Positions 22,833-29,095 of a stretch of DNA of 32,383 nucleotides are shown here, in pieces (position 1 is the stretch's first letter; every line of letters starts with the position of its first letter). The stretch is taken from the NCBI GenBank assembly GCA_011523305.1, contig WTHB01000018.1, positions 1 to 32,383 of the forward strand. Reading direction: 5' to 3'. Both the position numbers and the translations under genes were made by a program. The stretch comes from Planctomycetaceae bacterium. GTDB lineage: Bacteria; Planctomycetota; Planctomycetia; Pirellulales; UBA1268. Below the pieces are notes generated by a model that was not told where the DNA came from, ran no database searches, and saw only the letters and a program-made list of their open reading frames with translations.

Positions 22833-25487
<2,655 letters not shown>

Positions 25488-25626: not shown

Positions 25627-27552
25627 CTACTCGTCGTCCTGTTTGACTTCAAACTCGGCGTCGATCGTGTCGTCGGCTGCCGCAGTTGCTCCGGCTGGCT
25701 CGCCACCGGCGGCCTCACCGTCCGCTGACCCCGCCTGCGCCTGGGCCTCGTAGAGCACCTTTGAGAGAGCGTGCGATGCCTGCTCAAGCGCATCGTGGGC
25801 AGACTGAATCGCATCGGCATCCTCACCCTTGGCCGCTTCACGGGCCTTGGCGATCGCTGCCTCAAGCGGTGCCTTATCGGCCGCCGAGAGCTTCTCATCA
25901 TTTTCCTTGATCAGCTTTTCGGTCTGGAAGCAGAGGGCCTCGGATCGATTCCGCACCTCTGCCAGCCGCTGCTTCTGCTTGTCTTCTTCGGCGTGCACTT
26001 CGGCATCCTTCCGCATCCGCTCGATCTCTTCCTCATTGAGACCGCTCGACTGCTCTATCTTCACCGACTGCTCTTTGTTGGTGCCGAGATCCTTTGCACT
26101 GACCGCCAAAATGCCGTTGGCATCAATGTCGAACTTCACCTCGATCTGTGGTGTTCCCCGCGGCGCTGGCGGAATGCCTTCCAGGTTGAATTGGCCGAGC
26201 AGGCGATTGTCCTTCGCCATCGACCGCTCACCCTGAAAAACACTCACCGTGACCGCAGTCTGATTGTCGGCGGCTGTACTGAAGACCTGCTTTCTCTCGG
26301 CCGGAACCGTCGTGTTCCGCTCAACCAACTTGGTGAACAGCCCGCCTTCGGTCTCAATCCCGAGCGACAGCGGCGTCACATCGAGCAGCAGCACGTCCTG
26401 CACGTCGCCAGCCAACACGCCACCCTGGATGGCGGCACCCAGCGCGACAACCTCATCGGGGTTCACACCCTTGTGCGGCTCCTTGCCAAAGATCTTCTTG
26501 ACAAGTTCGTTGACCTTGGGGATGCGGGTCGATCCACCAACCAGCACCACTTCGTCAATCTCTTTAGGGCTGAGCTTGGCGTCCTTGAGGGCCTGCTCCA
26601 CCGGACCCCGGCACCGCTCGACCAGCCCGTCGCACATCTCTTCAAATTGCGATCGGCTGATCGTCAACTGAAGATGCTTTGGGCCTGACGCATCGGCGGT
26701 GATGAACGGCAGGTTGATGTCACTGCTCTGCGCTGAACTGAGTTCCTTCTTGGCCTTCTCGCAAGCTTCCTGCAACCGCTGCAATGCCATCGTGTCCTGA
26801 CGCAGGTCGATCCCCTGCTCGCTTTTGAACTGGTCGGCCACGAAGTTGATCAACGTCTGATCAAAGTCGTCGCCGCCCAGATGGGTGTCGCCATTGGTGC
26901 TGATCACCCGGAAGACACCGTCGGCAACTTCCAACACCGACACGTCAAAGGTGCCACCACCAAGGTCAAAGACCACGATCTTTTCCTGATTTTTGCTCTC
27001 CAGTCCATAGGCCAGTGCCGCGGCCGTCGGCTCATTGATGATCCGCATCACTTCAAGACCGGAAATCTGGCCAGCATCCTTCGTTGCCTGCCGCTGGGCA
27101 TCGTTGAAGTAGGCCGGCACGGTGATGACCGCCTTGTTGACCGTGTGCCCCAGGTAACTCTCGGCCGACTCCTTCAGGGACCGCAGCACCTTGGCGGAGA
27201 TCTCCGGCGGTGTGAACTCCTTGTCGCCAGCTTTGACCTTGACGTAGTCCTCAGGGCCGCCCACGACCTCGTAGGGCACAATCTTTTCTTCGCTGGCGAC
27301 CTCATTGTGCCGCCGCCCCATGAAGCGTTTGATTGAGTAGACCGTTCGCTTGGGATTGGTCACGGCCTGGCGGCGGGCGATGTCACCAACGAGTGTTTCG
27401 CCTTTGTCGTTAAAGGCAACCACACTGGGGGTGAGGCGATTGCCCTCTTTGTTGGCAATGACTTTTGGTTCCTTCCCCTCCATCACTGCGACGACAGAGT
27501 TCGTGGTGCCGAGGTCGATGCCAATGATCTTTTCGCCCTGCTTGGTTGCCAT
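25627..27552 (-). CDS. dnaK: Chaperone DnaK (Hsp70)
   Basis: The 641-residue protein has the actin-like ATPase domain, with [42 protein letters not shown] and [12 protein letters not shown]. The hydrophobic interdomain linker [16 protein letters not shown] follows, then the substrate-binding beta domain and helical lid. The C-terminus is Gly/Ala-rich and ends [12 protein letters not shown], like the acidic DAEFEEV tail of typical DnaK. It binds exposed hydrophobic segments of unfolded proteins, driven by ATP with DnaJ and GrpE, neither of which is encoded nearby. The ATG at 27552 was chosen because GAGAGAGGAAG lies before it; the frame's upstream 33 codons look non-coding. A sigma-54 promoter is found about 160 bases upstream, and clpB lies downstream. 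Confidence 0.98.
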
Positions 27553-27976
27553 AGTGTTTTCTTCCTCTCTCGCGATGCGCTGCCTGTCAAAACGATGTCT
27601 GTAGTGGTGCCGTGAACCGGCCGACGCCCCCTGTCCCTGCCGACCGCCCATCGCTGGACCAGTCGCACCGTGAGGGATCGGAATTGTCGAGCCACTCCGA
27701 CGACGAAGAAATATTGCAAAGACCGTGCCAACACTGGTCGAAGCCTGGTTTTCAGGGGCTTAAACTCGCAAAAATGGTGATTGGGCCGTATTTACGCCGC
27801 TGATCCAGAGGGTAAAGTGGTCCGCGGCCCTGCGCGAAAGCAACGCCTCCTATTTGCCGGCTGCCATTTTGACGGGCCTGAGGTCACCCAGCCCAACTGG
27901 ATGAAATACCGCCGGAACGCGACCGTGGTGGCCTCCTTCCCTCTAGCCTCCCTCCTCTGACCGCCTTCAAACGCCC
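27553..27976. other. Intergenic region between dnaK and pheA
   Basis: This 424-base divergent region holds the sigma-54 promoter for dnaK, a probable 150-base dnaK leader and the unidentified pheA promoter. An imperfect inverted repeat (27741-27761) and a near-palindrome GGTCCGCGGCCC (27819-27830) are also present. I see no CIRCE element and no convincing small gene. A TTGACA at the dnaK-proximal end lacks a -10. Confidence 0.6.
27714..27731 (-). promoter_or_regulatory. Sigma-54 (-24/-12) promoter upstream of dnaK
   Basis: On the minus strand the sequence reads TTGGCACGGTCTTTGCAA. It matches the sigma-54 consensus YTGGCACG-N4-TTGCW at every position, with the invariant GG and GC exactly ten bases apart. 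Transcription would start near 27704, giving a leader of about 150 bases before the dnaK ATG at 27552. Such promoters need RpoN and an ATP-driven enhancer-binding protein; neither gene is in the window. Confidence 0.75.
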
Positions 27977-29095
27977 ATGGCTCAATCGCCCCCGCCTCGT
28001 CGGAAAAAAGCCGCCGCCAAGCGACCAGGTCTGGCGACCCTCCGCAGTCGGATCGACAAGATCGACCGCGAACTGGTCGGCCTGATGAACCAGCGGGCCG
28101 AGGTTGCCCGCGACATCGGCCACCTCAAGGCAGCCAGTGGCGAACTGACCTATGACCCATCCCGAGAAGAACTGGTCTTGGACCGGGTTGCCGGCGCGAA
28201 CAAGGGGCCGCTTGCCGACGACAGCCTGAAGGCCATCTTCCGGGAATTGATTTCGGGGTCGCGGGCGATTGAACAGCACCTCCGCGTCGCCCACCTTGGG
28301 CCCGCCTGGACCTACAGTCACCTTGCTGCGCTACACCGCTTTGGCAGTGCGGTTGAGTTCGTACCGGTCTCGAGCATTTCCGCAGCCTTCGAGGAAGTCT
28401 TGGCCGGGCATTCACACTACGGCGTGGTGCCGCTGGAAAACTCCACCGACGGTCGCATCGCCGACACGCTCGACAATCTCTCCCGGATGCCGGTCAAGAT
28501 CTGTGCCGAGGTGCCCCTGCGGATTCATCACAACCTGCTGGCCGCCTGCGAACGGCACGACGTCCGCGAGGTCTACAGCCGCCCCCAGGCGCTCTCGCAG
28601 TGCCGCAACTGGCTGGCCCGGCACCTGCCCAATGCCACGCTTGTCGAAGTGACCAGCACCAGTGCTGCCGCCGAAACCGCCGCCCGCACCCCCCACGCGG
28701 CCGCCATTGCCAGCCGCCAGGCAGGCGTGCATCACGGCCTCTCCGTGCTGGCGGAGAACATTGAAGACATCGCCGGAAACACCACCCGGTTCGCCGTTAT
28801 TGGGCACGCCGATGCCAAACGCACCGGCAAGGACAAGACCGCCCTGATGTTCGAGATTGAACACCGCCCCGGTGGTCTGGCCGATGCCCTCTCCATCCCG
28901 AAGCGGCAGAAGCTCAATCTGACCTGGATTGAGTCGTTTCCACTGGCCGGTGAAAAACGTGGCTACATCTTTTTCGTGGAACTCGAAGGCCATCGTGACG
29001 ACCTGCGGGTCAGGCGGGCGATTGCGTCGCTCGAAAAGCGGTGCACCCGGGTCGCGATTCTCGGCAGCTATGCTGCGGCCAGCCTCGTAGGATGA
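27977..29095 (+). CDS. pheA: Bifunctional chorismate mutase / prephenate dehydratase
   Basis: The 372-residue protein catalyses chorismate to prephenate and prephenate to phenylpyruvate, the committed steps to phenylalanine. An AroQ-type chorismate mutase domain (about 18-100: LRSRIDKIDRELVGLMNQRAEVARDIGHLK) is followed by the dehydratase domain (about 103-280), with LGPAWTYSHLAA, VVPLENSTDGRIADTLD and the catalytic TRF in GNTTRFAVIG (270-272). A C-terminal ACT domain follows. In the ACT domain the usual GALV and ESRP phenylalanine-binding motifs read GGLA and ESFP, so feedback control may differ. The N-terminus is Lys/Arg/Pro-rich. It opens the plus-strand housekeeping series and is divergent from dnaK. 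Confidence 0.95.
   Translation: MAQSPPPRRKKAAAKRPGLATLRSRIDKIDRELVGLMNQRAEVARDIGHLKAASGELTYDPSREELVLDRVAGANKGPLADDSLKAIFRELISGSRAIEQHLRVAHLGPAWTYSHLAALHRFGSAVEFVPVSSISAAFEEVLAGHSHYGVVPLENSTDGRIADTLDNLSRMPVKICAEVPLRIHHNLLAACERHDVREVYSRPQALSQCRNWLARHLPNATLVEVTSTSAAAETAARTPHAAAIASRQAGVHHGLSVLAENIEDIAGNTTRFAVIGHADAKRTGKDKTALMFEIEHRPGGLADALSIPKRQKLNLTWIESFPLAGEKRGYIFFVELEGHRDDLRVRRAIASLEKRCTRVAILGSYAAASLVG

Follow-up and report, generated by a model that had tools for sequence, protein, structure and literature searches.

The question raised by this locus is which system controls the chaperone gene dnaK in a planctomycete of the order Pirellulales. The window, that is, the whole stretch of 32,383 nt analysed, carries dnaK (HSP70) on the minus strand at 25627 to 27552, with its ATG at 27552 (Pfam PF00012, 868 bits). 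It is followed 139 nt downstream, on the same strand, by clpB (22833 to 25487), recognised by its Pfam ClpB domains. No sigma-54 core was found in the gap between the two genes, allowing up to 2 mismatches, and they are probably co-transcribed. On the other side of the dnaK leader, a pheA-like gene for a chorismate mutase/prephenate dehydratase (27977 to 29095, plus strand; Pfam PF00800 and PF01817) is transcribed divergently. An initial annotation had proposed that a sigma-54 promoter stands in front of dnaK, so that chaperone expression would depend on RpoN and an enhancer-binding protein.

The proposed site exists: the minus strand from 27731 to 27714 reads TTGGCACGGTCTTTGCAA, and the -24/-12 core itself, TGGCACGGTCTTTGC, occupies 27716 to 27730 of that strand. 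It matches TGGCAC-N5-TTGC exactly, its GG and GC are ten bases apart, as announced, and its -12 GC lies about 164 nt from the ATG, in agreement with the distance of some 160 bp first given. No other exact TGGCACN5TTGC is present in the window. The chance expectation of 0.06 per window was also about right, as genome counts give 0.08 to 0.09 per 32 kb. In the 3.49 Mb of the genome, however, the exact core has 10 matches, against 8 for a reversed control pattern. The bare match is therefore not significant genome-wide, we discarded it as a measure of significance by itself, and the case for a real promoter rests on conservation.

Conservation of the -24/-12 element in close relatives had been chosen beforehand as one of the points on which the proposal would stand or fall. 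Of the dnaK leaders from the family, 50/50 keep the core, always beginning with TGGCAC or CGGCAC, and, when counted at 9 or more of 10 positions, it is present in 29/34 leaders of the order or class and 16/33 leaders from other classes of the phylum, these leaders being related by descent and the counts not independent trials. Dinucleotide shuffles of the same leaders yielded on average 0.75, 0.65 and 0.4 cores per set, and reverse complements 0, which places the conservation above chance. The eight genomes of the genus with sufficient upstream sequence show an invariant core in a leader that otherwise drifts, and the core persists in leaders whose surrounding sequence is unrecognisable or unalignable. 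On these comparative grounds, we consider the site before dnaK to be a genuine sigma-54 promoter, sigma-54 control of the gene being close to certain; RpoN dependence and heat induction of dnaK would be expected. Judging from the same leaders, a sigma-54 chaperone promoter is the rule in Planctomycetota, and no peculiarity of the window genome.

The usual heat-shock control sites were not detected, as had been remarked at the outset. For CIRCE (TTAGCACTC-N9-GAGTGCTAA) the best score is 10/18 in the window and 9 to 13/18 across 117 leaders, and for HAIR (CTTGAGT-N7-ACTCAAG) it is 9/14 in the window and 7 to 11/14 across the 117 leaders. As to sigma-32 (CTTGAA-N11-17-CCCCAT), no site was found in the leader, the best score, 9/12, falling where another conserved element accounts for the match. 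Compared with the sigma-32, HrcA/CIRCE and HspR/HAIR systems, the target genes are alike, but the sigma factor and the sites differ, and it is with respect to these three systems that the description of this heat-shock control as unusual is right.

Sigma-54 promoters are silent without an activator. A dyad, TGCCA-N3-TGGCA, is conserved across the phylum 80 to 165 nt upstream of -24, with the consensus CTGCCA-N3-TGGCAG in other families, where the distance is mostly 80 to 160 nt. Its copy in the window, element A1 (CCGTCAAAATGGCAG; 27861 to 27875, minus strand), is situated about 130 nt upstream of -24 and is degenerate (left half 3/5, right half 5/5), the left half being degenerate throughout the genus. 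All 50 family leaders nevertheless contain the family pattern [GT][CT]CAAAATGGCAG upstream of the core, and YCAAAATGGCAG has one match in the whole window genome, which is A1. The core is accompanied by the dyad at 70 to 170 nt in 42/50, 28/34 and 14/33 leaders of the three sets; shuffles gave 0.0. Within the family, the distances from A1 to -24 cluster near 122, 129, 143, 154 and 165, and mostly step by about 11 bp, the periodicity expected of a DNA-looping activator that has to face the polymerase when bound. This conserved candidate falls at the distance at which an upstream activator site of a sigma-54 promoter is looked for, some 100 to 200 nt from the start, and we regard it as likely that the dyad is the enhancer of the dnaK promoter.

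The dyad had escaped the initial annotation, together with two other elements of the leader: a conserved divergent pheA promoter and a half-site 3' of -12. The former is a promoter-like pair, TTTACG-N16-TAAAGT (27786 to 27820, plus strand), situated between A1 and the sigma-54 core, and its spacing is exactly 16 in the 44/44 family leaders in which both parts were recognised. One element of this region, CGTAAATACG, was examined as a possible enhancer and rejected, its fixed 16-nt spacing to its neighbour assigning it to the divergent pheA promoter. Since the latter sits between the candidate enhancer and the core, the controls of pheA and dnaK may interfere. The half-site-like element A2 (CGACAATTCCG; 27679 to 27689, minus strand) is variable and lies about 26 nt downstream of -12. 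It is conserved in the genus alignment; beyond the genus, its enrichment is weak and position-specific, and we ruled it out as a general second enhancer (38/117 leaders versus 30 in a control region).

The same arrangement is found in front of groESL. Leaders of this operon in the family, including that of the window genome (L186), contain a -24/-12 core, with CTGCCAAAACGGCAC or close variants about 90 to 145 nt upstream. In the window genome the groESL core has CGGCAC and so escapes the exact pattern; among the exact matches listed for this genome (L011 to L018), no clear chaperone promoter was seen besides that of dnaK. A composite of dyad and core, TGCCA-WWW-TGGCA-N86-116-TGGCAY-N5-TTGC, was then searched irrespective of genes in 84,980 species genomes, where it occurs in at least 118 places. 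Of the 111 listed matches with a readable downstream ORF, 84 directly precede dnaK (36), groEL (38), hsp20 (7) or clpB (3), the classes being drawn from sequence signatures rather than full annotation, with examples verified using Pfam. The 80 titled rows among the matches listed are mostly from Planctomycetota, including Blastopirellula marina, Kuenenia and Scalindua. Chaperone matches outside the phylum, again among those listed, come from Poribacteria (groEL, hsp20), Gemmatimonadetes (clpB, hsp20) and, before dnaK, a Bacteroidaceae MAG.

Which protein could act on the dyad? Six clear sigma-54 activators are encoded by the window genome, and three of them are reciprocal best matches in all six other genomes compared: L093 (G000:C74), an NtrC-like response regulator; L094, an FHA-GAF protein; and L095, a sensor-less AAA+-Fis protein. 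The first has a receiver domain (REC, PF00072), a sigma-54 AAA+ domain (PF00158), a Fis-type HTH (PF02954) and a partner kinase. This adjoining kinase, composed only of HisKA (PF00512) and HATPase (PF02518), is soluble, and no sensor domain was recognised in it. L093 orthologs occur immediately upstream of dnaK, in the same orientation, in nine genomes from other classes (G085, G123, G124, G129, G150, G190, G218, G269 and G337); in G085 and G123, at least, the kinase gene precedes the regulator. These dnaK-adjacent regulators have their best match in the G000:C74 group, and the recognition helix ERTLYRK is common to them. In the window genome the kinase-regulator pair is not at dnaK; it adjoins a gene that visual inspection suggests to be mutL.

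The association is incomplete in both directions: G085, G190 and G337 have the regulator beside dnaK and no recognisable -24/-12 there, and G308, G209 and G117 have the promoter and no strong regulator match at the cut-off used. The loop contacting sigma-54 reads GAFTDA in five Pirellulales regulators (L093, L150, L152, L155 and L165), and GAFTGA or GSFTGA in the other members of the group that were read, from other orders and classes. Copies of the enhancer were also sought in the promoters of enhancer-binding-protein genes, as a sign of autoregulation, and none was convincing. Taken together, these sequence data make it probable that an L093-type regulator activates the dnaK promoter, in which case the G000:C74 pair would be the ortholog acting in the window genome. 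As for the sigma factor, rpoN (PF04552) was not found in the 95%-complete assembly of this genome, its six sigma-54 activators notwithstanding. It is present in 65/72 genomes of the family and 8/10 of the genus and, since relatives mostly carry it, its absence is likely due to an assembly gap.

Other readings have to be weighed against the one that emerges here. The core might be a chance match, and dnaK might be transcribed from a sigma-70 or ECF promoter that escaped notice; the count of about ten exact cores in the genome, no more than in the reversed control, and the missing rpoN would fit. Against this stand the persistence of the core in every family leader despite the loss of its surroundings, where shuffling yields less than one per set, the specificity of the composite for chaperone genes among the matches listed, and the dnaK leader itself, in which no sigma-70 consensus match was found, though it may contain an extra promoter. 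As the main explanation, chance is refuted by the conservation seen in the compared leaders, and we judge this reading to be extremely improbable. It is less far-fetched, if still doubtful, that the dyad is the operator of a different regulator, either a repressor or the regulator of pheA, the true sigma-54 enhancer having gone unrecognised. A1 does fall within the pheA leader in the family, in some leaders (L257, for example) the dyad occurs but no -24/-12 could be recognised, and a half-site is often present about 25 nt downstream of -12. However, groESL, hsp20 and clpB, beside which no pheA was seen, have the dyad in front of them at a comparable distance, and the spacing of the dyad to -24 is restricted.

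Among the alternatives, the one to which we give most weight, though it remains unlikely, accepts the promoter and assigns it to another activator, such as the lone PspF-like L095 or the FHA-GAF protein L094. Both have reciprocal best matches in all six genomes, L095 is highly conserved in the class, and a stress response would be well served by an activator that lacks a sensor and is restrained by a chaperone. L095 was our initial favourite, and was dropped because its orthologs are mainly confined to the class: clear ones are limited to it and perhaps G168, whereas promoter and dyad are phylum-wide, and G209 and G342, in which no L095-type match was obtained, possess both the dnaK promoter and the dyad. 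Moreover, an L093-type regulator is the only kind found beside dnaK (L094 having been compared in six genomes). As a separate observation, L095 and its orthologs overlap a long ORF on the same strand that has receiver-like stretches.

We therefore favour a sigma-54 chaperone regulon driven by a two-component system, an overall model that we hold to be likely from the comparisons made. The dependence on RpoN and an enhancer-binding protein, put forward initially from the core, gains support from the conservation of this core, the common dyad, the matching groESL promoter and the NtrC-type gene beside dnaK. In this model, dnaK, and probably clpB too, would be transcribed from the promoter with its core at 27730 to 27716 (minus strand), where RpoN-RNA polymerase would be held as a closed complex. 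The soluble histidine kinase would phosphorylate the NtrC-type response regulator encoded beside it, and the latter would bind the dyad CTGCCA-N3-TGGCAG (27875 to 27861 in the window), its presumed binding site, and drive open complex formation by means of its AAA+ ATPase. The same regulator would drive groESL as well as, in relatives, hsp20 and clpB, constituting a chaperone regulon in which activation takes the place of sigma-32, HrcA or HspR. The signal would be protein-folding stress, and heat is a plausible natural signal. A broader proposal, for which we see the chances as evenly balanced, is that one ancestral two-component system runs the core heat-shock response in Planctomycetota, and probably in Poribacteria and some Gemmatimonadota: the kinase would sense folding stress, perhaps through DnaK, and the regulator would switch on dnaK, groESL, hsp20 and clpB via sigma-54 and CTGCCA-N3-TGGCAG. 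If true, bacterial chaperone control would have a fourth major design, next to those based on sigma-32, HrcA and HspR. With a sigma-54 promoter, the usual logic of a heat-stable sigma factor or of repressor release would give way to the ATP-driven opening of a closed promoter.

Part of this picture was already known. Predicted sigma-54 promoters are enriched at the DnaK, GroEL, GroES, GrpE, DnaJ and IbpA groups in Planctomycetia and Bacteroidota (PMC12316311, 2025); that survey offers a group-level statistic, and searches of its main text brought up neither an enhancer site nor a regulator of the chaperone genes. What is added here is the enhancer element and the candidate regulator. We found no report of either, and the study of Pirellula sp. 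strain 1 enhancer-binding proteins by Studholme and Dixon (2004), which lay outside our search, may already mention chaperone promoters. In Chlamydia, which belongs to a related phylum of the PVC group, a sigma-54 promoter activated by a two-component system is described at hrcA-grpE-dnaK (2020). There, however, much of the heat response depends on HrcA and sigma-66, whereas CIRCE was not found in the 117 leaders scored here and the planctomycete element is also present at groESL. In Myxococcus xanthus, the histidine kinase HsfB and the NtrC-like HsfA activate the heat-shock gene lonD (PMC9109919, citing Ueki and Inouye 2002), but HsfB is a kinase of the hybrid type and has other targets, while the planctomycete candidate is a small soluble HisKA-HATPase protein with the core chaperones as predicted targets. 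When Rhodopirellula baltica is heated, dnaK, groEL, clpB and hsp20 are induced, but not the rpoH, rpoE and rpoN transcripts, and a significantly different cascade was suggested (PMC2754498). Now that a candidate enhancer has been defined and a candidate two-component system named, heat-shock control in planctomycetes becomes directly testable.

Some further matches of the composite, among those listed, deserve mention. L394, titled Bacteroidaceae, and L435 both have it before dnaK, and their dnaK starts are near-identical. None of the proteobacterial rows precedes dnaK, groEL, hsp20 or clpB. In L347, L421 and L428 the composite stands before similar proteins, that of L347 (a Desulfobacteraceae MAG) belonging to the methylenetetrahydrofolate reductase (MTHFR) family. 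One further common protein family follows it in L373, L379, L390, L410 and L457, where the titled rows are Myxococcales, Deltaproteobacteria or Proteobacteria.
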